A stretch of 22,054 bases of DNA from a virus. The notes under the pieces were generated by a model. It ran no database searches. It was not told the DNA's origin and saw nothing but the letters and a program-made list of their open reading frames with translations. The DNA lies in IMG/VR virus record IMGVR_UViG_3300017769_000147, positions 1 through 22,054 of that record. The stretch is one strand, 5' to 3'. Shown piece by piece: positions 1 through 20,347 of this stretch. Each line of letters opens with the position of its first letter. The stretch's first letter is position 1. A program made the position numbers and the translations under genes.

Positions 1-2921
1 AAGGTGTCGTCACCACAGAAAGAACAGTTAGACGGAAAAACGGTGGATCCAGACTGACTAATCCACTCTTCCTGCATGTATGGATTTCCGGACATCGTAA
101 CACAATCCCAAGTATATGGCTCGTTCCTTGAAAAACAAACTGCATCATTCAAGTTACCATACCTAGAATCTAACCACGCAACATTTTGTGCTAACACATC
201 TGCCAACGATGAATCATAAATGATTTCACAACCACGATCTACATCTGGTGGGGGGGTGCTTGGGTTTGGTGATGCTGTGGTTGAATCCGGGTCGGGAGTA
301 GTGTCGGGATTCGGAGTAGTGCCGGGACCGGGATCGGGAGTAGTGGGTGGAGGTTGAATTGTGCCCGTCGGGGACGGGGTCGGGCCGACGGTAGTAGTTA
401 TTGGCTCGTCCGTCGTCGTTGTTGTTGTGGTCGTTGACGATGGTGGTGGTGTTGTCACTGGACCACCGATACATGGATCTGTTATACAAGAAACTCCACC
501 GGTCCATTGTGCATTTGGAAGACCAAAGCAATCACACCAAGATTGAGTGGAATCTTGACAAATTGTTCCATTACAACACGATCCAAATGGCTCTACTGGA
601 GCAACAACGAAGTTGGGATTAAATACAAAATAAATCTCTGGAATCCATCTACTGTAAAAAAGTTCACTTCCAGTAGATTTCAATCCATAACTATTTGAAC
701 CGGATGCGTATGTTTGATCCGGTCCGGAAGCACTCGTTCTCGTTGGAGTGGCTATGTACTCCCCATCAGAGTTCATAATTAAGTAATTTTCAATAATTCC
801 TATGCTGAGGGGACTAAATTGCTCAAAACCCGGACTCACGTCCATAAGTTTAGAATACAGACTAATATTTTGTGGATCTGACGGAACTGGTGGTGCATCA
901 AACAGTGTTGCGTTGCCATATTCGATGTTCATGCGAAATGCAATACTGGCAAAATCTATCGGAAGCCCACCGACTTCATATTGTTTCCTTCTCAGATTAA
1001 TTCCGTTACCACCATAACCCAGATTAAATGCCCCGGGTCCACCTCCGGCTTCCCCACCGACACCTAAAATTGCTCCTCTTGCTCTACCATCATTTGGAGT
1101 TGTGGTATTGGATGTACCTCTAAATCCAAAAGGATCTGACGAGCAAGTCACATCAGCAATGAATTCATTACACTCCTCACACTCTGATGGATCATTTACT
1201 TCAACGCATTCATCGAGATATGTGTATCTAATTCCCGCAACTTGATCTTGTTTAAGAATCCCACAAACACCAGCCACACCAAAGCAACAATTTGTGTCTT
1301 CGCAGTTTGTTCCATGTCCTTGGAAAATTCCACCAGCGGCTTTGCAATCTTGATACGATTTTTCACTACATTCACCCTCTGATAAATCGTCAGGTGAGAT
1401 AGGCTCACAACATGCACCAAATCGTTCGATGGAGTCACAACAACTTTGTTCACCAACGATGTCACCATTTTCACATGTTACTCCGGGGACAGATTGTCCT
1501 CCATAGAGAAACTCACATTGAATTCGTGTAATATCATCACCAATACATGTTCCATTTACACAACATGCAACTGGCTCTTGACAACGATCATAACAGAACC
1601 TTCCTGTTTCGATTGGGTCTGCATAATTTTGTCCTTCGGAATCGTATGTTATGCTATCACCATACTCATTAACAATTGTGCTTGTTTCACAAATAACATT
1701 TGGGAAGAATGAACCACCGATGGATGCACAAAGAATGGCACTGATACCGTTTGAGCAATTACCCTCAGAACAACAAACACCACCACCAACACCACAAGTA
1801 TCACTACAAGACTGAAGAACGTTAAATGTTCCGTTTCTTTCAAGACATTGTTCTTGTGTTAAGTAATCATCACAGAAGAAAACACCAGTTTCGGGATCAG
1901 TTGAACAGCAAGAGCCGGGAGTTGTTCCAGATCCTTGACAACCAAAGACATCATAACCTCTTGCGGTAAATACTGCTGTCCAGTTTACACCACCATCAAT
2001 CGTGGTAATAGAGAGAACATCCGTCCCGCAACTAAAGTAGTTTTCATCATCTTCAAATTTAACATTTGATGGAAATGCCCACATGTCACCGTTTTCAATA
2101 ACGAGTGTTTTTGTGATCGAATATCCTGTTGGATAATCACCAGAAATTCCAAGAATACCAGCAGGGGTAACAATTTTTGCAATGTCAGTATTTGATAAGT
2201 CAATGCTAATGCCATTTGTAACTCCGGCAATAACTTGACCTTTTTCAAACGGACCAACAACAAAAGCACCATCTTTGTTAAACACACCAGTGATACCGTC
2301 ACCATTAAGGAAACTATATCCTGTAGTTCGTAAGAAACCTGCGGTTCCTGTTCTTGAACCACCACCTCTAAAATCTAGAACATTCGCTGAGGCAGAGTCT
2401 GTTTCAATTTCAATATCTGTACTTGAAATTACTGATGGATTTTTAACATATGCAAGTCTATTTGCAACAAGAGAAGCGGTTGTCCCTGCGATATCAGTTA
2501 ATATTGATGAAAAAACAATTTTGTCATTATTAAATGTGGATTGAATACTTCCGCTACTTTTAATACTTCTAAAATCAATTGTAATTCCGGAAACACCGGC
2601 AGCGAAAGAAACACCTGCACCTAGATTTACGACACCGGCAGTTCCGGCAAAGCCAGTTGGTCCAACAAAGTTTAATCCTGTAGCACCTTCAATTAGTGTA
2701 TTTACCCCATCAACTTCACCGAAGAAGTCGAGTAAGACACTACCATCAGATTGAATATCTCTTTTAACGAGTGTTATAAAACCACCACTAATACCAGCAG
2801 GACCGGTGGGACCGGTTGCTCCTACAGGACCAGTTGCACCCGTCGCTCCGGTGGCTCCGGTTGTTCCTGTTATCCCTCTGGTTGGGTTGGGTATTGCACT
2901 ACTACCATAAATGAAAGACAT
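1..2921 (-). CDS. Collagen-like, cysteine-rich modular tail fibre/adhesin (third of three paralogues; 3' end beyond the window)
   Basis: The reading frame is open from ATG at 2921 to the left edge, giving 973 codons with no stop, so the C-terminus is missing. The protein starts MSFIYGSS, then Gly-X-Y repeats (about 16-43), then a beta-rich spacer to about 325. A cysteine array follows at 336-546 with about 27 Cys, including GACC and GGIFQGHGTNCEDTNCC. Next come a Gly-rich stretch (616-640), another GSCC module (780-817) and a Thr/Pro linker (821-895) with eight consecutive Thr. A further Cys-containing domain starts at about 898. The start overlaps the previous stop as TAATG, with a GGAG-type ribosome site about 12 bases upstream. 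The shared N-terminus and cysteine modules make it a paralogue of the two genes upstream. No Lcl/DUF1566 domain is visible in the part present. A virion adhesin role is inferred from architecture and position; the ligand is unknown. Confidence 0.85.
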   Translation of the reverse strand, partial: MSFIYGSSAIPNPTRGITGTTGATGATGATGPVGATGPTGPAGISGGFITLVKRDIQSDGSVLLDFFGEVDGVNTLIEGATGLNFVGPTGFAGTAGVVNLGAGVSFAAGVSGITIDFRSIKSSGSIQSTFNNDKIVFSSILTDIAGTTASLVANRLAYVKNPSVISSTDIEIETDSASANVLDFRGGGSRTGTAGFLRTTGYSFLNGDGITGVFNKDGAFVVGPFEKGQVIAGVTNGISIDLSNTDIAKIVTPAGILGISGDYPTGYSITKTLVIENGDMWAFPSNVKFEDDENYFSCGTDVLSITTIDGGVNWTAVFTARGYDVFGCQGSGTTPGSCCSTDPETGVFFCDDYLTQEQCLERNGTFNVLQSCSDTCGVGGGVCCSEGNCSNGISAILCASIGGSFFPNVICETSTIVNEYGDSITYDSEGQNYADPIETGRFCYDRCQEPVACCVNGTCIGDDITRIQCEFLYGGQSVPGVTCENGDIVGEQSCCDSIERFGACCEPISPDDLSEGECSEKSYQDCKAAGGIFQGHGTNCEDTNCCFGVAGVCGILKQDQVAGIRYTYLDECVEVNDPSECEECNEFIADVTCSSDPFGFRGTSNTTTPNDGRARGAILGVGGEAGGGPGAFNLGYGGNGINLRRKQYEVGGLPIDFASIAFRMNIEYGNATLFDAPPVPSDPQNISLYSKLMDVSPGFEQFSPLSIGIIENYLIMNSDGEYIATPTRTSASGPDQTYASGSNSYGLKSTGSELFYSRWIPEIYFVFNPNFVVAPVEPFGSCCNGTICQDSTQSWCDCFGLPNAQWTGGVSCITDPCIGGPVTTPPPSSTTTTTTTTDEPITTTVGPTPSPTGTIQPPPTTPDPGPGTTPNPDTTPDPDSTTASPNPSTPPPDVDRGCEIIYDSSLADVLAQNVAWLDSRYGNLNDAVCFSRNEPYTWDCVTMSGNPYMQEEWISQSGSTVFPSNCSFCGDDT
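237..461 (-). repeat. Thr/Pro-rich, mucin-like linker coding region
   Basis: This stretch codes for residues 821-895 of the left-edge fibre. It is almost entirely Thr, Pro, Ser, Gly and Asp, with eight Thr in a row (831-837 area) and recurring TTPDP/TTPNP units. The DNA is visibly richer in G and C than its neighbours and contains imperfect repeats of the type cgggagtagtg. It includes a run of seven G at 250-256 (seven C in the coding strand). The likely role is an extended flexible stalk between the cysteine modules and a distal domain. Glycosylation is only a possibility. Confidence 0.8.
471..584 (-). repeat. Isolated distal cysteine module of the left-edge fibre
   Basis: Residues 780-817 begin with GSCC and hold eight cysteines in 38 residues, ending just before the Thr/Pro linker. 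The module has the same GSCC start as the main array, but it lies about 230 residues further on, after the Gly-rich region. The C-terminal half departs from the consensus: it has WTGGVSC instead of GGxFxGxGxxC. Confidence 0.65.
1284..1916 (-). repeat. Cysteine-module array of the left-edge fibre
   Basis: Residues 336-546 contain about 27 cysteines arranged as four successive modules, starting at GSCC (336), GVCC (381), ACC (452) and GACC (503). The last is the closest to consensus and ends GGIFQGHGTNCEDTNCC. The same module type occurs in the two upstream fibre genes. Small disulphide-bonded or metal-binding folds are both possible; the sequence does not decide. Confidence 0.75.
2793..2876 (-). 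repeat. Collagen-like Gly-X-Y segment (third fibre)
   Basis: Residues 16-43 follow Gly at every third position, mostly as GAT and GPT triplets, directly after the IYGSS N-terminal motif. In phage fibres such segments form a trimeric triple-helical stalk. It is shorter and less proline-rich than the matching segment of the 1370-residue paralogue. Confidence 0.85.
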
Positions 2922-5746
2922 TAATTCAACTCCGGACAATTGCAGGTTCGACAGTTATAACAATCACCATTATTACTCTCTATGTATCTTGATAAATGGT
3001 TTTCAAATTCACAATCATACGTTGTTTCAAATAATGGTATTCTTCTGATTGGTCTAGCCGAAGCAAAATCATCACTTCTAAACTCTGTTTCAATTAGTCC
3101 GTTTTGGAAGTTTTGTAAAAATGCTCTGTGTGCGTGTGGTGCAATATTCGATGTTGTCCTGTCAAGACTTTGATCTCTTCTATCAAGAGGAATAAAGTTT
3201 TCTGCTTCACATGAAGAAGTATCAGTTGTTCTGTATTTTGCACCACTTGTTGACGACCAATATTTTGGTTCCGACAACGGTGAAAGTCCAGCACGAAGAA
3301 GTCCGAGATTAATTACGTCAAGATTACCATAGATATACATCAATTCAATAATACTTGGGACGTACCAATCGTTGTAACCAAACTTGGTGGTATCATTCCA
3401 TTCCGAGACAAGTCTCATTATTGAGTTTTCTTTGTTTTCGTTTTCCCAAAGTTCTGTAAACTTCTCTTCAAAATATGAAATGTCCGTTTCAACTCTAGTT
3501 TGATCAGTGTCGGAAGGCCAAGCAGTAAACTCAGAATGCACCCATCGTAAGTACGAGTCCTCGTCTTTACCTTGATAATTTTCATCATACCAAGGCTTCC
3601 ATGTGATCGAAGATTTATCAAACATTCTCGTTCCGATAAGTCCGTCAAAGAATGGTGATCCCATGTACTTACCCGACTCGACTGGATCGGATTCGGTTTG
3701 TCCGTATGTTGTTTGACGAATACCCCAAGAAAGAGATCGTGAATTGTTGTAGTTCAAATCTTCGGGTGCAATAACGATTGCCCATTTTCTTGGAATCTTT
3801 GTGCTGTTGTAATACTTCTCAGCGACTCTGTAATATCTTTCGATTTGAATGTAATTTTCATACGATGCCAAATGTCTCTTAATCGGCATCTCATAAAGAT
3901 TATAAAGATAAGGTGAATGTGGAACATCGTAACATGCGTCAACTTTATTTGTGTTGTTACTTAAATCGTTTCTGTTCGTATCATTAAAACATGTGCTTGG
4001 GAAAACTTTAAATGGCATCACGCTGTCACAGAAACATGGACCTTCGTTTTCGTAACTGAAGTTATTTCCTGCATTGATAACATAACGAATTGGATTTGAT
4101 TGTGCCTCTGGTGGACAAGCAGCACACTGGTTTTCTGTGTAACCAAAGGTGAGACAATATGGTGATTCACCCTTCGCAAAGATTGTTCCATAATCGTTTG
4201 GTTCACCAATAACACCCAGAAGAATGCCACCACCAAACTCATCACCCGGCTGAAGATTTATCGTTGGGTTAACATTTACAGAACAATTTGCTTGCTCAGA
4301 TTGTCGAGTCAAAGTTTCAGGTGGAGCAAATCCTCCTGCGTCTGGTGAGTCTGTTACACTTGAACAGCAATCTGTTGTTTCGCACGAAGTGCCATCACCT
4401 TGGAAAATACCACCAACACGATTACACTCAACAGGACTTAGATTATCTGCACATACTTTTGGTTCACCATTTTCATCTGGTGTGCAACAAGCACCACGAT
4501 ATAATTCTTCAAGACAACAGTTTCTTGCCTTACATGGAACATCCTGTTGGAACACTCCACCTGCAAGATCGCACTCATATTGATTAAATTCGTAACACAC
4601 ACCACCGACACAACACGATCCAATAAGGCATCGGTCGGGACATTCAACTTCCGTTGCCGTGACACTTGGAATAAAAATACCATTAAACTGATCACAAATT
4701 GCACTTGTCGAATTAAATGCTTCACCATTAACACAACAAGCACCACCGAATGCACAGTTCACACCCTCTTTTCGATTAATACATGTTGTGTTTGATGAAA
4801 AATTTCCACCAATATTATCACAGTAACCTTTGGTTACATAATCGACGCAATTGTTTAGATATGATCCATCGTCATCATCTTCGCAATAACAGCACGATCC
4901 ATACTCTCCAGAAAGTATTGATTCATCATATGATGATGTAAAGAGTTCTGGGGTTGGAATTGTTCTAAAACTTGTTCTATCGGCTGTTGTATCTCCTGTA
5001 CGAACACCCATATTTAAGAGCGGACGAATCACACCAATATCTGGATTTACTGTGATGAAACCAAAGAAACTTTTACTTGCAGTGAGTCCTGCGCCTGCTG
5101 ATGGATAAAAATATGTTGTGTCTGAATTAACGATTGTCTCATTTAAAAGTCCGAACTGATCGTTATCTACATCGAGACTTTCGAGTAGAGTTGGAACATT
5201 CAACACTATATCTTGTCTGTCATCATATTCAGAAAAATTAAGTCCTTCGGCAGAAGAGCCAGCCTCACCCACAATATGAAGAAGTTGTCCAGTTACTCCA
5301 ATAACACCAAATTCTTGACCATAAACATTAATAACATCATTATTAGAACCAGTTAACGATGCAGCCCCTGATGTGGAAAACGTAAAAAATGCCGCAGTAA
5401 AACCAAAAGAATCCCAGACAATATCTGTTTTTGGTTCGACTCCAATTGTATTTACATTTAAACTTGGATTTTCAGTTCCCGCTGCACCTGTAACGTTAAT
5501 TACAGCAAAACTAAATCCAGTCCCACCTGCACTTAATTCTTCTTCATTTGAAAATCGGAATGTGACAGATTTACTATCTTGAGTAACACCTACAATTCTA
5601 TCTCCAGTACAACCCTGTGGTCCAGTTGATCCGAGAGGTCCGGTCGAACCAGTAGGTCCAGTTGGTCCGATAGGACCAGTTGAACCAGCAGGTCCTCTGA
5701 ATTCGTCGCTCACTATGCTACTGCTACCGTAAATGTAACCGGCCAT
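2921..5746 (-). CDS. Collagen-like, cysteine-rich modular tail fibre with Lcl/DUF1566-like C-terminal domain (941 aa)
   Basis: The protein starts MAGYIYGSSS, then a collagen-like segment (18-48) and a beta-rich spacer. Four cysteine modules follow at 283-461, with 26 Cys in 179 residues, including GGIFQGDGTSCETTDCC. From about 500 a domain begins with GDEFGGGILLGV and later shows WYVPSIIELMYI (about 794), YWSSTSG (829) and ASARPIRRI (895). Together these resemble the Lcl/DUF1566 family, a C-type-lectin-type fold used in surface adhesins. A short Cys-rich tail (CYNCRTCNC) ends the protein. ATG at 5746 has GAGGT upstream at good spacing, and there is an 8-base gap from the preceding gene. It is probably a receptor-binding or surface-adhesion fibre. 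The domain assignment rests on motifs read by eye, so it is moderate; collagen and cysteine arrays are certain. Confidence 0.85.
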   Translation of the reverse strand: MAGYIYGSSSIVSDEFRGPAGSTGPIGPTGPTGSTGPLGSTGPQGCTGDRIVGVTQDSKSVTFRFSNEEELSAGGTGFSFAVINVTGAAGTENPSLNVNTIGVEPKTDIVWDSFGFTAAFFTFSTSGAASLTGSNNDVINVYGQEFGVIGVTGQLLHIVGEAGSSAEGLNFSEYDDRQDIVLNVPTLLESLDVDNDQFGLLNETIVNSDTTYFYPSAGAGLTASKSFFGFITVNPDIGVIRPLLNMGVRTGDTTADRTSFRTIPTPELFTSSYDESILSGEYGSCCYCEDDDDGSYLNNCVDYVTKGYCDNIGGNFSSNTTCINRKEGVNCAFGGACCVNGEAFNSTSAICDQFNGIFIPSVTATEVECPDRCLIGSCCVGGVCYEFNQYECDLAGGVFQQDVPCKARNCCLEELYRGACCTPDENGEPKVCADNLSPVECNRVGGIFQGDGTSCETTDCCSSVTDSPDAGGFAPPETLTRQSEQANCSVNVNPTINLQPGDEFGGGILLGVIGEPNDYGTIFAKGESPYCLTFGYTENQCAACPPEAQSNPIRYVINAGNNFSYENEGPCFCDSVMPFKVFPSTCFNDTNRNDLSNNTNKVDACYDVPHSPYLYNLYEMPIKRHLASYENYIQIERYYRVAEKYYNSTKIPRKWAIVIAPEDLNYNNSRSLSWGIRQTTYGQTESDPVESGKYMGSPFFDGLIGTRMFDKSSITWKPWYDENYQGKDEDSYLRWVHSEFTAWPSDTDQTRVETDISYFEEKFTELWENENKENSIMRLVSEWNDTTKFGYNDWYVPSIIELMYIYGNLDVINLGLLRAGLSPLSEPKYWSSTSGAKYRTTDTSSCEAENFIPLDRRDQSLDRTTSNIAPHAHRAFLQNFQNGLIETEFRSDDFASARPIRRIPLFETTYDCEFENHLSRYIESNNGDCYNCRTCNCPELN
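4364..4900 (-). repeat. Cysteine-module array of the 941-aa fibre
   Basis: Residues 283-461 hold four modules starting at GSCC (283), GACC (335), GSCC (377) and GACC (418), each about 35-50 residues long with six or more cysteines. The first carries an acidic run (CEDDDDG). The last is nearly identical in its C-terminal half to the last module of the array in the downstream paralogue. Confidence 0.8.
5603..5695 (-). repeat. Collagen-like Gly-X-Y segment (941-aa fibre)
   Basis: Residues 18-48 keep Gly at every third position, with GPT, GST, GPI, GPL and GPQ triplets, and one unusual GCT triplet that places a cysteine within the stalk. It lies immediately after the IYGSS N-terminal motif. Confidence 0.85.
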
Positions 5747-5754
5747 ACTCTACC

Positions 5755-8700
5755 TCAATAACCGTATGAAGATGATGATTGGGATTCCCCAGACGACTGA
5801 GATCCACTTGATTGCTGTGATATACCAGAAGTATTCGTAATATTTAGGTTAGTCTCCGTCGTTTGTTGAATTTCATATGAACCACTTCTTCTTCTTCCTC
5901 GGTAATATGCCTCCAAGTAATTTACTCCACTTGGTTCGGTTGGACGATATGCCGATTTTTCAATACTATCTGGGCACCGAGAACCCTCACCACCAAAGAT
6001 TCCACCATAATAATTGACACATTCATAACGCTCTCTCAACGAACAGTAACCATTTGGTAAAGTACAAGATCCATAAAGATCACCCAAGAAAGAACTTCCA
6101 CCCTGTGGATCTCCTGCCTCTAAAGTGAGGTATCCTCTATGTCTTATGATTTCACCAAAAATATTTTGTAAAACAGACGGAATTGATGGTGATGCTTCAA
6201 ATCTACCATGATAGAAATTAATCGCTGAAGTGCTTAACGATTGAACAGCAGGCATATACCAAAGTCTAGCATTTGCATCAACCCACGAACCGTTTAGAGT
6301 AGTTTGTGCTTTGTCATAGAATAGTTTTGGATATCGTGCATCAACACGAACCAATCGAATCGCTCTGACTTTTGCAAGGTGATTAAACTTATCTCTCTTG
6401 TAATTTTTAAATCCAAAACTACTCTTTGTTGGATCGGGATTTGGTGGGAACTCTTGAGTCCATGCTTTTGTCATATGTCCCTTGATTTGAACTGCGTTTG
6501 TTGTTGACTTGACTCTATTGTCCGCACGATCAAAAGTAATTCCCACATATGGTGCCGCTGCCGTTCCACCTTCGCTTCCCGCTCCGGGAATTGTAGTAAA
6601 CAAAAGACCTTCTGGGTTATCAACGTGATCGTTTTTGTTGGTTATAAAGTCGAACGCACCAGATGATGTCCAATATTCACCCTGAAGTGCCTCTCCTCCG
6701 GCAGACAAAATATGATTGTTCAAAGAATTTGTTGCGACATGTTTTGCAATAAAAGCAAGTTCGTCTGGACTTGGAATGTACCACGGTGACATAAACGGTG
6801 GGTTGGGGTAGTAAATATTTTTATTTACTCCAGACGAGTCGTTGTCAACGCAGTATTTATCGGGACATGCTTGTCCAGTGGTTGATGCTTGATCGTCATA
6901 GAAAACTCTTGCACCATAAACTGCGGTTCCCTCTTTGCCTGCGTCTTGTCCTGTATTTCCACTTGCAGCGGCTTTTCCAAACCAATACTCACCGATATAC
7001 ATTTGTCGATTATACTTACTGTCTTTTTCAAAAGCATATGCTAAATTATTAATCGGTGTTGGGTCTTGTGGCCATGATGAATAATAAAATTCATTTGCAG
7101 TTGTGTTATTGTTATCACAACCAATCGTGAGGCTAGAACTAAACAAACAACCACATTGAAGTGACGAACCTGTTAAAGTTTTAAGTTGATCACATGTAAT
7201 AGTTTGAGATCCGTCTGGTGAGATATAATCGTAAGTTCCATTACAATTAGTTCCGGCAGTTCCACACTCGTAATAAGCATGATTCAGTCCATGTGCCATT
7301 CTTACCGTATTGTGAAGTCCCCAGTTTCTGTGCCAAAGACCATTGTAGTCAGCACCAAGTTCTTCTCTCAATTGATAATTGCCACCGGCAGATGCTTTGG
7401 AATATAATTTTTCAAGCGAGGTTGTTCCAGCACCTCTAGCAGATTGCCAAGATGTGACAGAGTGACGAGTAAGATTTTCATTTACGGTGGGTTGTCCTTG
7501 ATTTGCACCAACACCTGATGTCTTCCTCCAATGTCCTTCTTTTGTAGAGAAAATTGGTCGGAAGTAACCACCATATTCTCCACCCTCAAGAACACCTGAT
7601 GCAGAATAGTCTTCACCATTGAACCCTTCAACAATATCAATGTCGAGATATTTTTGTTGTCTTTCTGTTCCAACGTCGGAGTCTGGTTGTCCAATGTTAC
7701 TAATCGGTCCATAATTACTACCCGTAACACCCCAACGGAACTCTTTATTATTTGAGAACGGATTTGATTCTAACTCTGCATCGTTGAGTGAAAGAATAAT
7801 AAACCAAGCATCCTCTCTAAACTCACCCGATTCCTCGTCTGGATATGAAAGGCCTTGGTAGTAACTTTGAGACTTTCTATCATCATAACCGTATCCGTGG
7901 AAATCATATTGTGACCGATAAATTCCAGAGTCTGATTCGTCTGCTAGAATTGATGGTGGAATATATGCAGATGAAGTTGTTCCGTCTGGAAGAGTATCAA
8001 TTACATTTCCAGTAAGACCAGAAACTGAATTACGATCCAAACCATGTCCTGTGTTACCTAAGCAGGTTGCACCATATGGATTAAAGATACCAACCACAAT
8101 ACCACCACCATAAGATTGACCTAATTTAAAATAAGGTTCAACATCTGAATGTGTAAAGAACGGATGAATTCCATCTGGAAGGGAACGTCTTTCTGGATTA
8201 AAAAGATTTGGTGGACTTGTTGTTGCACAATTACTGTCATCTCCAGCATAAAGGGATCCAACACCAATGCAAGCCGCACCATCTATATTATCAACACAAG
8301 TTTGTCCTGTATAACACGCACCACTTCCACCCGAACATAATGTGTCTGTGCAAGCCACTCCCGGTCCTCTAAAGAATCCACTAATTTGCTCACATGAAAA
8401 TCTATCCACTTCTGTGCAATTTCCATTACCGTCGCAACATGCCCCGATACCAAGAACTGAATTATCGCAATCAACACATTCACAACCCGATTCAACTTTG
8501 GTAATGTCACATCCCGGCAGATAATCATTAAAGTTTGAAAAAGATGCGTACAAGTCTGCGTTATTTGAAAGGGATAAACATTGATCGGGACTTTGATCGT
8601 TGAGACAGTCAATTTGATCGGTGTCGATTTGATACACACAACACGGTCCAACCGCATCACCATTGATTCCGGTTGCGGGAGTTCCGCAAGCGTTTTCAAT

Positions 8701-9867
8701 ATTTTGTGGTGTGAAACCAAAAGCGGCAGCCGTTGCTTGAGAAACAAAGAAGCCCGGACACTCTGCAAACGTTGTGATTGTTGTATTACCATCACCAAGA
8801 CAACATGCACCCGTGGCACCATCGGTGGAACCAAAGAATGGTTCTAATTCATTACAATAGTGTGTTTCACTATATGGTTCTAATTCGTTGATGTCAGGAT
8901 TATTGCCTGTAAGATCCCAACCAACAAGATTTCCATACCATGTATCCTGAAAAGAGATAAAAGTAAAGATGTCTCTGTTACCACTAAAACAAGGTTTCTG
9001 TATGTACGGGAATTTGACATTACTCTGACTTGTGAACCGATCAACTGATGGTGTAGTTCCGGTTGCACCATCAACAATTAAAAAGAACGAAGCACTATAA
9101 TTTTCTGGTGCTTTGTTAATGTTTACAGTCAGTGGTGTCTGTCCATCAGTTACCTCTGCATATTGAGTCATATCAACAACAAAGTTTTTTGCTCGTGCCC
9201 AATCAACGGTTGCTTCAACCCCCTGAACACCTTCAATATCTTTTATTTCTACACCGTTTCCTTTTTCTAATAAAACGGTTGGTTCTCTATATGATTTAAC
9301 TCGAAGACCACGAACTTCATTTCGATTTAAAAACTCTTTGGCAGTCGCACCCTGAAGTCCAACTAAGTTGCTAGAACCATCTGTTTTGATAAGTTGTCCG
9401 GTTAACCCAGAAACATCAGCAAAACCCGATCCACTCAAATCATAGTCGAGAGTTATCAATCCATCAGAATCAGTTGATAACGTCAGATAATTACCTGTAA
9501 CTCCAAGACTTCTTATTGATAACGTGTTTTTTTCTGTGCTTACAGCAAGAGTAAATCCGTCACCTAAGTTATTGAATCCTACTCTGGTTAAAGTTGAACC
9601 AGTGTTTCCAAGAATTTGAGATCCATCGACGGTGCTATACTCGGCAGAAATACCTCTTTCAAAAGTATTACCGCTAAAAAGTGTAACAAAAGTAAGACCA
9701 GAGGAGGAAGAAAGAATCTCAAGAAAACTTTCTCCAGTCGGTCCAGTTGCACCTCTAATTGTTGGACCAGTTGCCCCGGTCGGTCCTGTTGGACCAGTGG
9801 GGCCAGTGGGGCCGGTGGGACCAGTCGCAGATCGTATAAAGGGGCTACTTCCATAAATTGGTGTCAT
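5755..9867 (-). CDS. Giant collagen-like, cysteine-rich tail fibre with Lcl/DUF1566-like domain (1370 aa)
   Basis: This is the largest protein in the window. It starts MTPIYGSSPF, followed by a collagen-like segment (16-45, mainly GPT), a beta-rich spacer (46-340) and cysteine modules at 354-511 (18 Cys), trailing to 547. From about 583 (GQSYGGGIVVGIFNPYG) to about 1174 a long region carries Lcl/DUF1566-type landmarks: WYIPSPDELAFI (1029), GEYWTSSG (1063) and KVRAIRLVRV (1166). Large inserts in it make it far longer than the usual domain. After it come a second domain-like stretch, another cysteine module (1266-1298) and a Ser/Gln/Gly-rich tail ending SSSSYGY. ATG at 9867 overlaps the upstream stop as ATGA; the nearest purine-rich site (AGAGGAAA) is about 19 bases away, so translation may depend on coupling. 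It is likely the main adhesin; the ligand cannot be read from sequence. Confidence 0.87.
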   Translation of the reverse strand: MTPIYGSSPFIRSATGPTGPTGPTGPTGPTGATGPTIRGATGPTGESFLEILSSSSGLTFVTLFSGNTFERGISAEYSTVDGSQILGNTGSTLTRVGFNNLGDGFTLAVSTEKNTLSIRSLGVTGNYLTLSTDSDGLITLDYDLSGSGFADVSGLTGQLIKTDGSSNLVGLQGATAKEFLNRNEVRGLRVKSYREPTVLLEKGNGVEIKDIEGVQGVEATVDWARAKNFVVDMTQYAEVTDGQTPLTVNINKAPENYSASFFLIVDGATGTTPSVDRFTSQSNVKFPYIQKPCFSGNRDIFTFISFQDTWYGNLVGWDLTGNNPDINELEPYSETHYCNELEPFFGSTDGATGACCLGDGNTTITTFAECPGFFVSQATAAAFGFTPQNIENACGTPATGINGDAVGPCCVYQIDTDQIDCLNDQSPDQCLSLSNNADLYASFSNFNDYLPGCDITKVESGCECVDCDNSVLGIGACCDGNGNCTEVDRFSCEQISGFFRGPGVACTDTLCSGGSGACYTGQTCVDNIDGAACIGVGSLYAGDDSNCATTSPPNLFNPERRSLPDGIHPFFTHSDVEPYFKLGQSYGGGIVVGIFNPYGATCLGNTGHGLDRNSVSGLTGNVIDTLPDGTTSSAYIPPSILADESDSGIYRSQYDFHGYGYDDRKSQSYYQGLSYPDEESGEFREDAWFIILSLNDAELESNPFSNNKEFRWGVTGSNYGPISNIGQPDSDVGTERQQKYLDIDIVEGFNGEDYSASGVLEGGEYGGYFRPIFSTKEGHWRKTSGVGANQGQPTVNENLTRHSVTSWQSARGAGTTSLEKLYSKASAGGNYQLREELGADYNGLWHRNWGLHNTVRMAHGLNHAYYECGTAGTNCNGTYDYISPDGSQTITCDQLKTLTGSSLQCGCLFSSSLTIGCDNNNTTANEFYYSSWPQDPTPINNLAYAFEKDSKYNRQMYIGEYWFGKAAASGNTGQDAGKEGTAVYGARVFYDDQASTTGQACPDKYCVDNDSSGVNKNIYYPNPPFMSPWYIPSPDELAFIAKHVATNSLNNHILSAGGEALQGEYWTSSGAFDFITNKNDHVDNPEGLLFTTIPGAGSEGGTAAAPYVGITFDRADNRVKSTTNAVQIKGHMTKAWTQEFPPNPDPTKSSFGFKNYKRDKFNHLAKVRAIRLVRVDARYPKLFYDKAQTTLNGSWVDANARLWYMPAVQSLSTSAINFYHGRFEASPSIPSVLQNIFGEIIRHRGYLTLEAGDPQGGSSFLGDLYGSCTLPNGYCSLRERYECVNYYGGIFGGEGSRCPDSIEKSAYRPTEPSGVNYLEAYYRGRRRSGSYEIQQTTETNLNITNTSGISQQSSGSQSSGESQSSSSYGY
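5974..6072 (-). repeat. Isolated C-terminal cysteine module of the 1370-aa fibre
   Basis: Residues 1266-1298 read GSC...C...C...GGIFGGEGSRC, matching the second half of the cysteine-module consensus. The module lies about 760 residues downstream of the main array, beyond the Lcl-like domain. It shows that the module can be placed independently within these proteins. Confidence 0.65.
8335..8808 (-). repeat. Cysteine-module array of the 1370-aa fibre
   Basis: Residues 354-511 contain 18 cysteines in three modules starting at GACC (353), GPCC (407) and GACC (475). The third is closest to consensus (SGFFRGPGVACTDTLC). The first two are looser, with longer spacing before the closing cysteines, so they may be older or degenerate copies. 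Confidence 0.75.
9733..9822 (-). repeat. Collagen-like Gly-X-Y segment (1370-aa fibre), 9-bp DNA repeats
   Basis: Residues 16-45 are mostly GPT triplets, with a short interruption at IRG. On the plus strand the DNA shows near-identical 9-base units of the ggaccagtn type between about 9764 and 9822. The repeats also create a proline/valine-rich open frame on the other strand, which is a shadow and not a gene. Confidence 0.88.
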
Positions 9868-11033
9868 GATATAAGTCCGAGTTTCCTCTGAACAGTTTGA
9901 AGATCAGTCTGAACTGTATTTACTGTGCTATTAATATCAGCGAGAGTGCTTGTTGCATTTGTTGATGTTGTAAGTTTATCGGTAACTTCAAGTTCTTTAA
10001 CAGACACTTTTCTTGGGATTGAAATGCCTCGGATATTTTTTACAACCATCGCAACAGCGATGCTGCCGGTTTGAATCGAACTACCAACAGAAAGTCTAGC
10101 AGAACCAGACGTAACGATTTGCGGCACAACAAATCTTGTTACTGTTGTACTATCGACCGTGTATAACACATCATCAATATTTATTTTGATACCTGTGTTT
10201 ACTTGGGGAACTCCAGAACCTCTTTCAATGGTGATTGTATTGTTAACGGTATCTATCGAAGTAATCCTTCCAGTGTAAGTTGTTTTACCTCCACTAACTT
10301 GTTTTGCAACCCTGCCAATTAAACTTGCCTTGGCAAGGCTTGTTGAAGCAAATGTAATTACTTCGGTATAACCATAAGTTTTACCGATTACCCCGTACAG
10401 TTCGTTAAAATCAGAAACATTAAAGTTTTGAGAACCTTGATCCACCCTCACGAGAGAAGGTGGTAATTGTTGTCCAATGTCCAAATATTCTCGAAGTTCA
10501 CCGATCAAATCATCGGTGCTTTCTGCCGCAATTGCTCCACCGACAGTATATCCAATATAGTTCAAAACAATAGCGTTGTTTACACCATCATCTGCCACTT
10601 GCAAAATTGGTTTAATTACTTGAGTTTGCTCAAACGGAGCCAAGTTTTGAACACCACCAGTTGCGGTCGGACTAAGGAAATAAATGTCATTACCGCCAGT
10701 TGCTCCTGTGGTATCCTCTGATAAATTTGTAAATCTACCTGATGGGTAATTAATTTGACCAAAAACAACAACGTTTAAATTTACAGCATCAACAGATTCA
10801 ACAACACCGATAACTTCTGCATTCTCTACAGTATTTGCTTTTGATTTTCTGTAAATTTTATTTGATGGATCTGACACATCGTACCGAATAACATCACCAG
10901 CCACAATTCCAGCCTCCACGGTATAATCTGAACTTGTTACTGGAATGGTGGCAAGAATTCGTGAACCGATGTTATTTAAATTAACATTGGTAGTCGATGA
11001 ATTAATATTTGAACTACTTGAACAACTTGGCAT
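9864..11033 (-). CDS. Tail-fibre-associated structural protein with shared repeat module (389 aa)
   Basis: I do not recognise a named family for the whole protein. A Ser/Asn/Thr-rich N-terminus (1-20) is followed by a module at about 40-165. That module aligns by eye with residues 115-230 of the 741-residue fibre next door: VAGDVIRYDV against VAGQVVRFVV, AEVIGVVE against AEVFGIVN, and IYFLSPTATGGV against VHFLDSSTAGGL. The middle (about 190-335) is beta-rich. The C-terminus (350-389) is polar with heptad-like spacing (VNTVQTDLQTVQRKLGL) and may form a short coiled coil. ATG at 11033 has a clear GAGGT upstream at 8 or 9 bases and lies 8 bases after the previous stop. Its position between two fibre genes suggests a fibre, connector or fibre-tip role, which is inferred. 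Confidence 0.75.
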   Translation of the reverse strand: MPSCSSSSNINSSTTNVNLNNIGSRILATIPVTSSDYTVEAGIVAGDVIRYDVSDPSNKIYRKSKANTVENAEVIGVVESVDAVNLNVVVFGQINYPSGRFTNLSEDTTGATGGNDIYFLSPTATGGVQNLAPFEQTQVIKPILQVADDGVNNAIVLNYIGYTVGGAIAAESTDDLIGELREYLDIGQQLPPSLVRVDQGSQNFNVSDFNELYGVIGKTYGYTEVITFASTSLAKASLIGRVAKQVSGGKTTYTGRITSIDTVNNTITIERGSGVPQVNTGIKINIDDVLYTVDSTTVTRFVVPQIVTSGSARLSVGSSIQTGSIAVAMVVKNIRGISIPRKVSVKELEVTDKLTTSTNATSTLADINSTVNTVQTDLQTVQRKLGLIS

Positions 11034-11041
11034 ATTTTACC

Positions 11042-13267
11042 TCAACTTACGTCGTTATTTAGGTCAGCATCAGCAACATAGTGGACAGAAATGTTATCAA
11101 AATTAACAAAACCAGTTAACGGTTCAACAAGAACCCCGTCTTTCGTTTTTTGTCCCACACGAATGGTTGTTTCTCCCGCAGGTGCAACACGGGTGTTTCC
11201 ACCAGAACCTCTGGATCCAGAAGTTTTTGCGAGGTTTGCATTCGCTGTTCTATTGAAAGCGTCTGCTGTGATCCCGTCTATTGGGGAGAATAAAGTAACA
11301 GTTGGTTCTTCACGCATTCGGACTGGGAATCTATGATAGAAATCGGAGTCGGGTGAAATTACGGTAAAGTTAAGAGAAGTTGAATCGGGAACACCATTTA
11401 TTGTCGTGTTCGACGACGATGTGATATCCGGTCCGTAACTTCGTTGATAATATCTTGCACAATCATCATACTCCGCTTCAATAGTTTTTGGTCTAACTGG
11501 AGTTGAAGCAAGTCCTCTTTCAAGTTTTACTTGAGCAAGATCCAGTTGTCCGGGGACTCGAAGAATGTCAATACCGACACCAACATAATCGTCACCATTA
11601 AAATTCGGAACTTGAGTCATTGCAGGCATAGAGAATGTTGTAATATATTTTGTAAAGTCTGTTCCGAGTGAGAACGTACCAAGGCTGGTTAGAGTTTCAT
11701 CGGATTCGTTATAAACTTGTTTCACAAACGCTGTACATGTCGCTCCTGAAGTCCCCGCTCTCGCATAGAAGGAAAGTGTCATGTTCTCCCCTCGGAAAGC
11801 ATCAGAACCCTCCACACGGTTCTCTACCTGTAGGAAATCGTCTCCAGTGTAACCAGAGATACTGTGATTCAAACGAGTATAGTAAAGCGGATTACCTTCA
11901 ACCTCTACTTGCGTTGGAGAGAAGTCTTTTCTTAAAATACTAAAGGATCCTGATCCGTGTGTCAAACCGTTAAGTCTTACCCACTTATCTGCAAAATAAG
12001 TGCTTCCTGTTCCAGTGTGTGCAGAACCAACACCAATACCTCTCTGCCAAACCGTGTACGAACCATTAATCAGTTCGTTATCGTTGACATAGGATACACC
12101 ACCAGTGTTAGATGTTGCACCAAAAAGAGTTGGAGGAGCCAATGTCGAAAACTGGATTGGATTGCCGGTTGATTCTCCCGTCAAGGGATTGAACGATCCT
12201 GCATCGTGATATGGATGGACAACCAAAGCAAAGTCACTGCCGATAAGAACGTTGATTCCAACTATTTTTGAACCAGATCCCGGATTTGTAAATTGCAAAG
12301 TACCATCGGTATTAACAAAGAGAGGTCCAGATCCATTTGTTACTGGTGAGTTTACTACAAAGCCATTTGTTACAACTTTAATTACACCAGATGCAAGTCC
12401 CGTTGTTGAATCTTCGGTGATAACACCGGCAACGCTGTTCATTGAATTGCTGTTATTTCCATTTGTGGGTTCAAATTGACCGTTATTAAATGAGATGGCT
12501 TTTCCACGAGTAAATTCAGATGCCATTCCTGTCAAGAAGAATGCGTTGTTGTCAGCCTGACTAGAACCTGTACCACCAGTTCCTTGAAGAAGTTGACCTC
12601 TAAAATTATAAACAACACCTTGTGTTTCTGATGTTGCGACTAAAACTGGTTTGGAAACTTGACCCAAAACATTTGGTTCATTTGCTGTCAAACCACCCGC
12701 CGTCGAAGAATCTAAGAAGTGAACACAACCGGGCTCAAGACCACCTGTTGGAATGTTAACAACACCGTGGGTTGCAACAGAAATTGAATTTTCACCTGTT
12801 TCCCCGTTTACAATACCAAAAACTTCTGCTCCTGATGGAGAGTCTGCTTTTGCTAGAGTAAGACCTCTGTAACTTCCGTCAACGACAAAACGAACAACTT
12901 GACCAGCAACATAATCGGCAGTTGCACCAGTAACAGACGCAGAGACTGTATTAACACCAGTGAAGGATTTTGCAAAATCATAACTGAGTAATCCATTAAT
13001 TGTGACATCGTTGAATGTCATTCCTTTGTTAACATTGCCACTAAGTTCGACAAAAATGTCACCAGAGGAGATACCAGTATTATCACTGCCAACACCATCC
13101 GAAGTAACACCAACGATTACGTTGATACCGTCACCGGAAATGCCGTCATATACACGGAGAAGATTATGCTTTGCGATAATTTCTGAGTTGGTTTTTGTTG
13201 CCCACTCAAAGAAACTCGTGTTATCGTTCAGGTCTTCTATTTGAAATGTATTGTCTTCAACGCCCAT
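11042..13267 (-). CDS. Tail fibre with C-terminal carbohydrate-binding-module-like region (741 aa)
   Basis: The N-terminus (1-52) has the pattern seen in T4-like marine phage fibres: a short polar segment, FFEWATKTNSEIIAKHNLL, then VYDG. Two copies of a beta-rich module follow at about 115-228 and 245-350. From about 398 the sequence matches the common phage-fibre pattern NGSYTVWQRG...YFADKWVR, with FRGENMTLSFYARAG (491) and LDLAQVKLERGLASTP (576) followed by DCARYYQRS. This is a carbohydrate-binding-module-like receptor region, and the remainder (620-741) is a distal beta domain. The role is host recognition on the virion, likely through surface polysaccharide. It starts 10 bases after the previous stop with a weak GGGG ribosome site. 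The C-terminal region is confidently a phage-fibre type; the receptor is unknown. Confidence 0.87.
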   Translation of the reverse strand: MGVEDNTFQIEDLNDNTSFFEWATKTNSEIIAKHNLLRVYDGISGDGINVIVGVTSDGVGSDNTGISSGDIFVELSGNVNKGMTFNDVTINGLLSYDFAKSFTGVNTVSASVTGATADYVAGQVVRFVVDGSYRGLTLAKADSPSGAEVFGIVNGETGENSISVATHGVVNIPTGGLEPGCVHFLDSSTAGGLTANEPNVLGQVSKPVLVATSETQGVVYNFRGQLLQGTGGTGSSQADNNAFFLTGMASEFTRGKAISFNNGQFEPTNGNNSNSMNSVAGVITEDSTTGLASGVIKVVTNGFVVNSPVTNGSGPLFVNTDGTLQFTNPGSGSKIVGINVLIGSDFALVVHPYHDAGSFNPLTGESTGNPIQFSTLAPPTLFGATSNTGGVSYVNDNELINGSYTVWQRGIGVGSAHTGTGSTYFADKWVRLNGLTHGSGSFSILRKDFSPTQVEVEGNPLYYTRLNHSISGYTGDDFLQVENRVEGSDAFRGENMTLSFYARAGTSGATCTAFVKQVYNESDETLTSLGTFSLGTDFTKYITTFSMPAMTQVPNFNGDDYVGVGIDILRVPGQLDLAQVKLERGLASTPVRPKTIEAEYDDCARYYQRSYGPDITSSSNTTINGVPDSTSLNFTVISPDSDFYHRFPVRMREEPTVTLFSPIDGITADAFNRTANANLAKTSGSRGSGGNTRVAPAGETTIRVGQKTKDGVLVEPLTGFVNFDNISVHYVADADLNNDVS

Positions 13268-14123: not shown

Positions 14124-14124
14124 A

Positions 14125-14991
14125 TTACACCGTTGTTATAATTAGATTGCTCATGTATCGAACTTTGCCCGTTGAGTGGTCGATATACAAAACAGGAGAG
14201 ATAGTATCAAATCCGGTCGAACCGTTAACACCCGCAACACCTATGCCAGAGAAATTAAAGGAAACTCTTGCCGCACCAAGACCGTTTATATTATAGAATC
14301 CAGCAGAATTATCTTGTAATGTTCTGTCCGTTGCTCCATCACCACCACCCTCGGGTAAAACGTATGTTTGTGTTAAAAATAATCCAACATAAGAAATACC
14401 TGATGTTGCTTTTGAAATTGTAGTTGTGTAAAGAGATTCACCCAAAGCACCCTCATAGTTAAGGTACACAAAATATTTAAATCCATTATCAACATCGGTC
14501 CCTGTTCTTACCTCTGTTAGATAGTATCCTTGATTTAATTGAATTGTAATTGAGGTTCCGTTATCAATTACAGACACAAGGTTTGGAATTTCGGATGATG
14601 CTGGTTGAGACGCTGGGGGGATCACATCAAATCCGGGTTGATTTCCTGCACCGTATGGTGCAAGCGGTGTTGCACCATCCCAGCCTGGTCCACCGTATCG
14701 AAGGCTTGTTCCCTCGTCTCCAGATCCAGCGTAAGGAGTTCCAACATAATAACCCCAGTAATTAATCATTGTTGCCATCAGAGTATTTTCTTTGTAAAAA
14801 TACTCTTGAACTTCGTTTAACTCTGCCGCTTGAACGGCATATCCGGGACGGAACGCAACGTATTTGTAGTTTTCCTCGAACGAGTTTGGATCAAATGAAT
14901 GCAAAACCGTTCTGCTGTTATATGGTGCAACAGAGAGTGGAGTTTGGGGTTCTGTTGAAGAAATTTTAAATGGTAATATTGATCTTGCCAT
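14125..14991 (-). CDS. DUF4815-like baseplate/fibre connector, first tandem copy (288 aa)
   Basis: Residues 41-65 read NYKYVAFRPGYAVQAAELNE plus a following helix, closely matching the DUF4815-type motif. A glycine-rich turn follows (GGPGWDGATPL, about 100-110), then beta-rich sequence with ISYVGLFL and the C-terminal VLYIDHSTGKVRYMSNLII. The paralogue downstream shows the same plan. The start overlaps the gp8 stop as TAATG, and a ribosome site AGGAAAA lies about 8 bases upstream. In T4 the genes after gp8 are gp9 and gp10 (fibre socket and wedge pin). The position fits an analogous role, but no sequence match to those is visible, so the exact function is open. Confidence 0.8.
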   Translation of the reverse strand: MARSILPFKISSTEPQTPLSVAPYNSRTVLHSFDPNSFEENYKYVAFRPGYAVQAAELNEVQEYFYKENTLMATMINYWGYYVGTPYAGSGDEGTSLRYGGPGWDGATPLAPYGAGNQPGFDVIPPASQPASSEIPNLVSVIDNGTSITIQLNQGYYLTEVRTGTDVDNGFKYFVYLNYEGALGESLYTTTISKATSGISYVGLFLTQTYVLPEGGGDGATDRTLQDNSAGFYNINGLGAARVSFNFSGIGVAGVNGSTGFDTISPVLYIDHSTGKVRYMSNLIITTV

Positions 14992-16823
14992 TAATATTTT
15001 CCTAATGAATAAATGTATTGGAAGAAAACTTCTCTTGGTGGTGCTTCTACAGCAGCGGTACTAGAAGTAGCGGTAATATTTGTATCATTTGATGAAACAA
15101 GTTTACCTGTAAATGGTGTAACGGTTGGGGAGGAGGTGACTTGAGACACAGTGAAAACATCGGTCAAATCAGTATTCAAAACCAATTCATCTCCTACTTT
15201 TATAGTATCAGATGCTTCAATTAATTCCAATGTCGCTGCCTTTGCCCCCACTTGTTTGGTTGCAACAATTTTTGCGGACTGCGGAACTTTTGTCTTTGAA
15301 TCCTGCGTTAAATTATTGAAAACAGTTAAACCTTTTTCATTAACAATTTTGGTTTTATCGTGACTAATGCTGGATATTTCAAAAGTTGGAGTCGCACCAA
15401 AACTAATAGAGGATGGAGAAGTAACGTTTACCTTTTTCACGTTAGAGAAACGTTGAATTTGTCCTGATCCCGTATCTGACCCTGCCTGAAAATTAGTCGT
15501 CTGTCCTTGTGTTTGAACATCTCTTATGATTCCGTAACGTCTAAATGTTACTTGATTTGTCCCGAAATCATCGGCAAGTCTATCAGTTCGTATTCCGACC
15601 CTAACCATCACTCTGGTGGCATTTAACAATCTTCTGGGATCAGCAAAAAGACCGTCTTGGTAGTCTAAATTAATTCTAATTCTATTTTCAAGACTGTTTG
15701 TAACTGATAAAATTGAGGCATCCCTATATCCAGATCCCCCATTAACTAGACTAATGCCATCAATTACAAAACTACTACCACTTTTATAAGTTGTTAATTG
15801 AACAACGGCATTTTCTCCGGAACTTGATGATATCTCCACAACTGGATCTTTTGTTGTTGTCGTTAAATCACTAACCGAAAGTCCAGACAAATCAATTGAA
15901 ACTGAATGAATTTGTCCTACTTTTGCTTTTGCCTCTTTGTAAACATTCGCTTGTAAATAAAGGTTCCTATTTGGACTTATTTTTCTTTGTTGATCCAAGG
16001 CAAGTTCATACCCACTTTTAATTGTTGTTGTTGAAGCACATGGATTATCGGTGCAGTTACCAAGCAGATTAAAAATGTATGATCTATTAAGTGCATTTGC
16101 TATAGCAAAACAATTTGTACATTTTATGTTTTCTGTGCAAAAATCAAGATCACCTTTAGAGAAAGCGTCTGATGTTACAGGATCAATCGCATCTTCCTTG
16201 TAATAAAAACAACAAGATCCGGATGCTCCTGCATTGTTACCACATCCACGACGAAAAGCCTCTTCTTTTTTGGATGCAGTTGAAGGTACAATATCATACT
16301 CATTTATGTCTGGAACAGGCATGTATGTGTTTGAAAGAAAGGTTTTGTCTGCGAGGTCAATTTTGTATAAAAATCTCCAAGAATAACCATCAGCCAAAAC
16401 TGTGTTTTGATTTGCCCTTGTGGGTTTAATTGTTGATGTACTCAATCCAAATTGGTCGTAACGATTTTTTTCGTTCGCTCCCATACAAACAAAAACTTCT
16501 TTGTCTTCTGTCATCGCATAGTAGTTTCTTTCCGGTCCACTTGCCCCAGTTTCTGGAATACCATTTGAATCATATGGGTAGTAAACATTCCCCGACGACC
16601 AATTAACTCGTCTTGCAATAATAGCAACTTCGTTGTCACGAATTTTTTGGAGGAATGTAATATCTTGCCAAACTGAATTGTCATCGGTGATTGTATTTTT
16701 ATTTTCTTCTGGAGCCGCACTTGCTCCACCTAAAAAGAAGAGCCAATTACTGGTATCTCCCCGAATAAGATCATACAGGGTTTTTGCCGTATCTATTCCA
16801 ATTGACCTCAAAGTTGTTGACAT
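14991..16823 (-). CDS. gp8: Baseplate wedge protein gp8-like, with cysteine-rich insert (610 aa)
   Basis: The N-terminal third carries the pattern seen in gp8 of T4-like phages: NEVAIIARRVNW (about 64-75), YYPYD, a KEVFVCMG strand (108-115), STIKPT (130) and DGYSWRFLYKIDLADKTFLS (145-164) followed by YMPVP. gp8 is a wedge subunit that helps lock the baseplate around the hub. T4 gp8 is 334 residues, so this version is much longer. Part of the excess is a cysteine-rich insert at 194-262, right after the core motif; the rest is a beta-rich C-terminus to LGKY. The start lies 13 bases after the gp7-like stop with an AGGAA ribosome site. A TATAAATA late-promoter-like box lies about 85 bases upstream. 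Assignment rests on motifs and on gene order. Confidence 0.82.
   Translation of the reverse strand: MSTTLRSIGIDTAKTLYDLIRGDTSNWLFFLGGASAAPEENKNTITDDNSVWQDITFLQKIRDNEVAIIARRVNWSSGNVYYPYDSNGIPETGASGPERNYYAMTEDKEVFVCMGANEKNRYDQFGLSTSTIKPTRANQNTVLADGYSWRFLYKIDLADKTFLSNTYMPVPDINEYDIVPSTASKKEEAFRRGCGNNAGASGSCCFYYKEDAIDPVTSDAFSKGDLDFCTENIKCTNCFAIANALNRSYIFNLLGNCTDNPCASTTTIKSGYELALDQQRKISPNRNLYLQANVYKEAKAKVGQIHSVSIDLSGLSVSDLTTTTKDPVVEISSSSGENAVVQLTTYKSGSSFVIDGISLVNGGSGYRDASILSVTNSLENRIRINLDYQDGLFADPRRLLNATRVMVRVGIRTDRLADDFGTNQVTFRRYGIIRDVQTQGQTTNFQAGSDTGSGQIQRFSNVKKVNVTSPSSISFGATPTFEISSISHDKTKIVNEKGLTVFNNLTQDSKTKVPQSAKIVATKQVGAKAATLELIEASDTIKVGDELVLNTDLTDVFTVSQVTSSPTVTPFTGKLVSSNDTNITATSSTAAVEAPPREVFFQYIYSLGKY
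16038..16244 (-). other. Cysteine-rich insert within gp8-like protein
   Basis: Residues 194-262 hold eight cysteines in 69 residues (194, 204, 205, 229, 235, 238, 257, 262), including GSCC and CTNC. The rest of the 610-residue protein has essentially one (C113). The segment begins with GCGNNAGASGSCC, which resembles the start of the fibre cysteine modules, although the GGxFxGxG half is absent. It separates the conserved gp8 core motif from the C-terminal half, as an inserted domain would. Confidence 0.7.
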
Positions 16824-16836
16824 TTTAAATTCCTAT

Positions 16837-18039
16837 TTAAGAGCAAGGTGTGTACGATGTGTTGGGACTATTTTCTGCGGGTGCAAGGAAAAAGAAACTC
16901 CCAATATTTATATTACCAAATGCCGACGCTGCCGACCCTTCAATGGGGATATCATCTGACCAGCCGGGGTGAGCATGTGTTGTGAGTGAAGTTCCATCGC
17001 CATCTAAGTCATAGGTACATCCGGAGGTGTAAGTAAGACCAGTTTGATCAGACACCCTGTAGGGGAGATAATGACCTAAAATTGTCGTTTCTCTAGCACC
17101 AAATTCACCCTCAAAATCCGGTGGTGGAACATAATCATCATTTGTAGTATTAAAGAAAACTTTAATTCCAGCGGGATGTGCGAGTTCGGAGTATATTTCC
17201 TGCTCAACCTCATCTAAATCATATGTTAAGTCCAATCCTACTGTTTCACCCAAAGAGGTAGAAACACTTAAGAGATAAGAGTAGTCTTGATACCAATAAC
17301 TATCTTGAAAAACTGCTTGTCCCAAGGGTTGATCAGATATTAAAAGATTACCTGAGGCACTTGGTGCAAACTCAGGAATGCCACCATCCGTTCTCAAAAT
17401 GTATTTTTTTGGTTCGTCAATTATAACGCTCGCACCGGCAACTTCAAACAAAGTTTTAAAGTAATAATCAAGTGCTGCTTTATTTGTTTTCTTTTGATAA
17501 AAATTTTCACGAATACCACTAATGAATTGAATTAGTTGTTCTTCACCAATTGGGTTTGATTGATCATTCCAATAGGTTTCTAATCCTTCTGCATATTGCT
17601 TCGCAATAAGGGATAGAATGTTTTTACGAGTTTCTTTATCACGGATAAAATCTTCATCATCATCTGACGTTTTTGCAATAGAGTCAATATCTAATAAACG
17701 ATATACGTCTTCGGACGTTAAGAAATACCCAGATCCCAGAGAATCTGTTGTATTTGAAGTATAAACCCAATCATAATACTCTGTTACAAGGCTAATGAAA
17801 TCAGTATAACCAAGAAGAGACAGATACGCTGGTAACGCTGGGTAAATGTTGTAATATGCGTTTGATACACCAGCAACTCTTTGTGAACCAAGAGGTTCAA
17901 ACACCGAGGGTGCATTTTCTGGACTTCTTGGTAAAAACTCTCTGTCTGCCAAAGAAAACCCGTTAAGATAAGTAGAGGAGATTTCATTGAATCTATACTC
18001 TTTATTCTTTGCCGAGTTTTTAAATATTGCACCAAACAT
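16837..18039 (-). CDS. gp7: Baseplate wedge protein resembling the C-terminal module of gp7 (400 aa)
   Basis: From memory of T4 gp7 (1032 residues), its C-terminal part shows an aspartate-rich helical segment with repeated tyrosines. It also has a 'K...A..Y.FK.LF' motif followed by a glutamate/valine strand, an SYYV-type strand and RFVHPVGF. Here the same order appears: PAYLSLLGYTDFISLVTEYY (70-89), KKTNKAALDYYFKTLFEVAG (183-202), DSYWYQDYSYLLSV (246-259) and AHPAGIKVFF (287-296). The N-terminal part of gp7 is missing, so this is either a short gp7 or a separate protein built from its C-terminal module. Position between gp6 and gp8 matches T4 order. The start overlaps the gp6 stop as TAATG with no clear ribosome site, so coupling is likely. 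The last 60 residues are variable. Confidence 0.72.
   Translation of the reverse strand: MFGAIFKNSAKNKEYRFNEISSTYLNGFSLADREFLPRSPENAPSVFEPLGSQRVAGVSNAYYNIYPALPAYLSLLGYTDFISLVTEYYDWVYTSNTTDSLGSGYFLTSEDVYRLLDIDSIAKTSDDDEDFIRDKETRKNILSLIAKQYAEGLETYWNDQSNPIGEEQLIQFISGIRENFYQKKTNKAALDYYFKTLFEVAGASVIIDEPKKYILRTDGGIPEFAPSASGNLLISDQPLGQAVFQDSYWYQDYSYLLSVSTSLGETVGLDLTYDLDEVEQEIYSELAHPAGIKVFFNTTNDDYVPPPDFEGEFGARETTILGHYLPYRVSDQTGLTYTSGCTYDLDGDGTSLTTHAHPGWSDDIPIEGSAASAFGNINIGSFFFLAPAENSPNTSYTPCS
16905..16912 (-). promoter_or_regulatory. Candidate T4-type late promoter box TATAAATA ahead of gp8
   Basis: On the minus strand the eight bases read TATAAATA, an exact match to the T4 late-promoter -10 element recognised by the phage sigma factor gp55. 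It lies inside the 3' end of the gp7-like gene, about 80-85 bases upstream of the gp8 start. Transcription would begin a few bases downstream and leave a leader of roughly 75 bases. It is the only exact match I noticed, but an 8-base AT-rich motif can arise by chance inside coding DNA. Confidence 0.35.
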
Positions 18040-20320: not shown

Positions 20321-20325
20321 AGAAA

Positions 20326-20332: not shown

Positions 20333-20347
20333 AAACTATGTAGGTCA

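Follow-up and report, generated by a model that had tools for sequence, protein, structure and literature searches.

Three adjacent phage genes, here called A, B and C, begin alike and end differently, which raises the question of whether they encode interchangeable adhesins, the chains of one composite fibre or fixed parts of an adhesion module. ORF calling shows the stretch of DNA analysed (22,054 nt, hereafter the window) to be one minus-strand operon, and all window coordinates refer to that strand. In order of transcription, an open ORF with profile matches to tail proteins (20348-22054) is followed by a gp25-like baseplate wedge subunit (19913..20320; phrog_261, E 9.3e-34), the gp6 wedge subunit (18039..19913; phrog_219, E 7.5e-81), a wedge-like protein, a gp8-like wedge subunit (14991..16823; phrog_438, E 4.7e-32), two DUF4815/phrog-like proteins, a 741-aa tail-fibre protein (11042..13267; phrog_4492 tail fiber, E 1.2e-32), a 389-aa protein (ORF 9864..11033; MPSC..SSNI), and then A, B and C. 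The gp25, gp6 and gp8 wedge genes thus stand in the order of a T4-like structural operon; the downstream series gp13-gp14-gp15-gp16-gp17 is found in the relatives L006 and L023, the window stopping earlier. In T4, the place corresponding to the A-B-C cassette is occupied by gp9-gp12 and wac. The gp6 protein is about 29% identical to its best named matches, which are in cyanophages; a search for Psb (PF00124) as a hint of a cyanophage host found none in the partial contigs searched.

Close relatives were collected by single-protein scans and distant ones by alignment scans. One contig, L002, is 99.9% identical to the window and represents the same phage; another, L010, is about 85% identical. 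A, B and C keep their neighbours: gene order is preserved in L006, L007, L008, L012, L017-L022, L024 and L026-L029, as far as the contigs extend. The 389-aa gene, which overlaps A by 4 bases in the window, has the equivalent place in L006, L007, L012, L017, L019-L022, L024, L026, L028 and L029. A and B are separated by 8 bases, and the first base of C is the last base of B. In relatives, A-B-C is followed by a fourth gene, D, and then by gp13-gp17 where the contig reaches that far.

Gene A (ORF 5755..9867) encodes 1370 aa and has orthologs in L004, L006, L007, L012, L017, L019-L022, L024, L026, L028 and L029. Gene B (ORF 2921..5746; 15 orthologs) encodes 941 aa, and gene C, an open ORF truncated by the window end (3..2921), at least 973 aa; L002 likewise breaks inside C, whose true end lies beyond both contigs. 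The near-identical N-terminal motifs reported in the preliminary description (MTPIYGSS, MAGYIYGSS and MSFIYGSS) are indeed the starts of these three ORFs. They form a cap in which conservation centres on GSS. In the A cap (MTPIYGSSPF, 9838..9867), G6 and S8 are invariant and S7 is kept in at least 90% of 14 sequences; in the B cap (MAGYIYGSSSI, 5714..5746), G7, S8 and S9 are invariant in 16 sequences; in the C cap (MSFIYGSSA, 2895..2921), the G, the last S of GSS and the next I are invariant in 14 sequences. A few members of the triad carry cap variants such as GYSS or VGFS.

Behind the cap, the collagen-like stalk, beta spacer and dense Cys array that had been described follow in each protein. 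A regular expression for Gly-X-Y places the stalk at residues 16-47 of A (9727..9822) and 16-48 of C (2778..2876); that of B, residues 18-50 (5597..5695), matches Pfam Collagen with an E value of 3e-4, below the curated cut-off. Each stalk counts about 10-11 triplets. PHROG and BclA matches that cover the stalk were discounted because of its low complexity: BclA is a spore protein of Bacillus with a GPT-rich collagen stalk, and the B profile matches 1wck over the low-complexity stalk only. The spacers, residues 48-337 of A (8857..9726), 51-282 of B (4901..5596) and 49-327 of C (1941..2777), are almost devoid of Cys, with single residues at A293 and C298; Cys 46 of B falls inside the stalk. The Cys arrays occupy residues 338-555 of A (8203..8856), where GxCC modules recur, 283-462 of B (4361..4900) and 328-597 of C (1131..1940), and A has an isolated C-terminal Cys module that can be read from its sequence (residues 1266-1298; 5974..6072). 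In proteins assembled in the cytoplasm, such Cys-rich arrays might form disulfides later or serve as metal sites. The B protein of L006 (8621-12604) has an insertion of several hundred aa directly past the stalk, lacking in the other aligned B proteins. Among 168 distinct ORFs of at least 100 aa from the window and its related loci, GSS within the first 16 residues and Gly-X-Y repeats by residue 70 coincide in 34, all of them in the A, B and C slots.

Resemblance extends past the stalk. With cap and stalk removed, the A and C spacers align by hhalign over 230 columns (E 4.3e-9); B is more weakly related to A (E 1.1e-4, 125 columns) and to C (E 1.3e-4, 87 columns). The Cys arrays align among all slots (hhalign; A-B 2.2e-12, B-C E 7.5e-29), their common Cys spacing boosting the scores. 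Judged from these alignments, the paralogy of A, B and C extends beyond the low-complexity stalk. The notion that a virion-attachment N-terminus was duplicated holds as to duplication and needs widening as to extent, as the shared profile is not confined to the cap but takes in the entire N-terminal half (about 460-600 aa).

A tree of 44 N-terminal halves sorts by slot, not by genome (support 100/97 for C and 93/81 for A). B forms one clade save for L006_B, whose trimmed segment contains the large insertion, and a single B clade is not rejected (p-AU 0.416). Because the tree groups A, B and C by slot rather than by genome, the triplication is old and the slots are fixed; the three proteins are accordingly constant components and not alternatives shuffled in recent times. 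Three slots that are always present, in fixed order, would also suit one hetero-oligomeric fibre in which the collagen chains combine, such as an ABC triple helix with three different heads per stalk, and the distances from GSS to stalk end are near equal within several genomes (42/44/43 for A/B/C in the window, 43/44/44 in L006, 43/45/45 in L024 and 43/43/45 in L029). However, the stalk ends are unequal in the L017 group (29/44/39) and the L021 group (35/74/77), in part because the regular expression breaks where the repeat is interrupted, a correlation of triplet counts is limited to A with B and comes from related genomes, and homotrimers can form from a single polypeptide, as in Lcl of Legionella (PMC11162425). 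We regard the heteromeric fibre as unlikely.

As proposed initially, the distal parts of A and B are Lcl/DUF1566-like. The B head (residues 499-906; 3029..4252) was identified by Pfam Lcl_C, by AlphaFold modelling and by a fold match in the PDB. The A head, which contains large inserts (residues 577-1176; 6340..8139; WYIPSPDELAFI...YWTSSG...VRAIRLV), was recognised by its profile match to the B head (E 9.4e-9). Pfam Lcl_C is found in 10 of 16 B members (best 2.8e-8) and PF07603 in 2 of 14 slot-A members (best 0.0022); that scan gave no PF07603 match for the window's own A, and for Lcl_C the window's own proteins either stay under Pfam's cut-off or give no match. AlphaFold modelling focused on the B head reached a pTM of 0.80. 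The top PDB match of this model by Foldseek is the C-terminal domain of Legionella Lcl (8q4e; prob 0.99, E 0.061); C-type lectins come next, and its viral matches include DUF1566 phage proteins. The 8q4e match of this predicted structure is consistent with an Lcl-like fold, though not decisive alone. A model of full-length B built from 16 sequences was set aside (mean pLDDT 43).

Gene D has a Cys-rich N-terminal part and a Lcl/DUF1566-like end whose profile matches the B head (E 2.2e-13); it lacks the GSS cap and the stalk, and its start carries the recurrent motif R.(K/R/Q)(T/S)...(D/N)Y. It lies directly past C in most relatives reaching there (for example L006:17742-19751, L007:18282-20039 and L017:15758-18307), other Cys-rich genes standing between the two in L024. 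D belongs to the cassette as a member outside the window. In L026, a Cys-rich D-like ORF (14038-21798), cut by the locus end, contains 251 Cys in no fewer than 2587 aa. The A and B proteins of L021 and L022 are short (471 and 472 aa) and end past the Cys array without a lectin-like motif, and the lectin-like domain is encoded there by a separate 211-aa gene (L021:8241-8876, L022:14871-15506).

The distal region of C (3..1130, incomplete) is of another kind. By profile comparison it matches none of the other heads (A, B and D), nor was a DUF1566/Lcl_C domain found by profile in C, which is incomplete in the window and complete in relatives. The mucin-like linker noted earlier is present as a Thr/Pro-rich stretch (residues 820-895; 237..464), and C of L006 has a Pro-rich stretch after the corresponding Cys module. 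In L007, C (13855-18282) carries distal repeats of the form GCTDPNAINYNENAVNDDGSC at about residues 1085-1365. Altogether, A, B and D have mutually related heads that are likewise related to the C-type-lectin-like Lcl_C/DUF1566 family; the C head is not.

Signs of exchange come from L017, L019, L020 and L027 (the L017 group), in which gp13 is 96-98% identical and both halves of A (three of the four genomes compared) and of B are 77-98% identical. C is 79-92% identical over residues 1-480 and 33-59% beyond residue 561; for the L017-L027 pair the values are 91% and 37%, with gp13 at 98%. DNA identity also falls over the span of the C head and D start. In B (residues 1-505), 11 informative sites join L017 with L027 versus 2 joining L017 with L019. 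Beyond residue 561 of C, 74 sites separate L017 and L019 from L020 and L027, versus 3 and 4 for the other groupings, and in D (residues 1-620) 62 sites join L017 with L019, versus 5 and 0 (Fisher p 2e-9). These groupings are most simply explained if a block spanning the C head and the beginning of D was exchanged; its breakpoint is loosely placed, since informative sites are sparse in C 1-480 (5, 2 and 1). C and D being adjacent, linkage alone can explain their common grouping, and fast divergence of both could mimic part of the mosaicism. The mosaicism is that of relatives rather than of the window's own lineage; by analogy with the L017 group, where distal C is hypervariable, the window's distal C would be a variable head. 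The proposal of N-terminal duplication with distal replacement is thus supported for the duplication and for the different distal parts, head exchange having been detected in C only.

A diversity-generating retroelement working on a lectin fold might instead create the variation of the C head, DUF1566 domains being frequent targets of such elements, phages included (PMC6642488, PMC8143477). We consider this very improbable: no reverse transcriptase (PF00078) was found in the contigs searched, all possibly partial, and the lectin-like A and B heads are the conserved ones, whereas the variable C head has no lectin-like domain. An elaborate form of the heteromeric fibre, in which three obligate paralogous collagen chains build an organelle with two constant lectin-like heads and one exchangeable head, D being a co-exchanged partner, also seems unlikely to us.

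The upstream tail fibre is variable too and could be the main host-range protein. Counterparts of window 11042-13267 (L017:2105-3952, L019:2049-3917, L020:2054-3892) are 82-84% identical in the L017 group, dropping to 41-47% past residue 240. Were this fibre to set host range, A, B and C could be accessory decoration or environmental adhesins, placed on the tail or baseplate and binding glycans or mucus loosely; collagen and lectin folds are known in non-specific adhesins too. Yet the C heads are no less variable than the tail fibre, and they are exchanged, which leaves decoration a conceivable but doubtful role.

Our preferred reading, to which we assign a probability of roughly 0.6, is that the cassette serves a T4-like phage as its adhesion module, with a triplicated N-terminal half, constant A and B heads and an exchanged C head that governs host range. 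A, B and C would descend from a single N-terminal half, composed of GSS cap, collagen stalk, spacer and Cys array, that was triplicated anciently; by analogy, the common cap most likely docks all three proteins to baseplate sites of one kind, and their Gly-X-Y stalks would form a triple helix. The conserved lectin-like heads of A and B probably provide steady glycan contact or trimer closure, and the fast-changing C head, swapped between lineages with the D start, probably sets host specificity. We infer cap docking, trimers, virion location and receptor binding, assigning docking to the cap and binding to the heads by analogy with Lcl (PMC11162425) and with collagen-containing prophage fibres (PMC3368898). 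A recurrent adhesin cassette of uncultured aquatic T4-like phages is defined and its constant heads are told apart from the variable one, making the C head a candidate host-range determinant and the GSS cap a candidate common docking peptide.

Among known systems, Lcl of Legionella is a trimer that combines collagen repeats with a DUF1566/Lcl_C domain (PMC11162425). A and B share this plan, as profile and fold place a C-terminal DUF1566-type, C-type-lectin-like domain after their collagen-like region; the curated Lcl family model (NF046116), however, scores 15.2 bits against a cut-off of 500, over the stalk only. Unlike Lcl, the phage genes lie beside baseplate genes, form three paralogs, have a spacer and a Cys array separating the stalk from the head, and start with a GSS cap instead of an amphipathic N-terminal helix. 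The side tail fibres EPclA/B of Escherichia coli prophages are likewise modular and collagen-containing, with N-terminal virion attachment and C-terminal cell binding proposed (PMC3368898), but their PfN, PCoil and PfC domains were not named in the Pfam and PHROGs scans. In Streptococcus thermophilus phages, the antireceptor also sets collagen-like repeats beside a variable host-range region (VR2); it is one protein of another phage type, and the description consulted mentions no GSS cap or Cys array (PMC5601072). Cyano- and pelagimyophages carry, between baseplate module and gp14, a host recognition cluster of adhesin genes, some with collagen repeats (PMC7029224), in a genome position similar to that of the cassette. 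The A-D profiles matched no ORF in such regions of three named phages (Melnitz, S-H9-2 and P-SSM2), and tblastn of A, B, C, L026 A and L021 C found no match in named phages, low-complexity filtering masking any stalk-only similarity. A genome-contig scan with the C alignment gave no relative. No cassette of three paralogs in fixed slots with a single exchanged head was found in the named phages searched or, non-exhaustively, in the literature consulted, in line with the initial remark, which knew of no described phage fibre family with this combination. An uncultured Caudovirales protein annotated as 'Collagen triple helix repeat' (A0A6J5PX22, 1034 aa), judged from its Foldseek match to the B head (prob 1.00, E 6.6e-3), may be an already deposited family member. 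Taken singly, the elements of the cassette are familiar: phage adhesins with collagen, phage proteins with DUF1566 heads, and adhesin clusters in the corresponding genome region.
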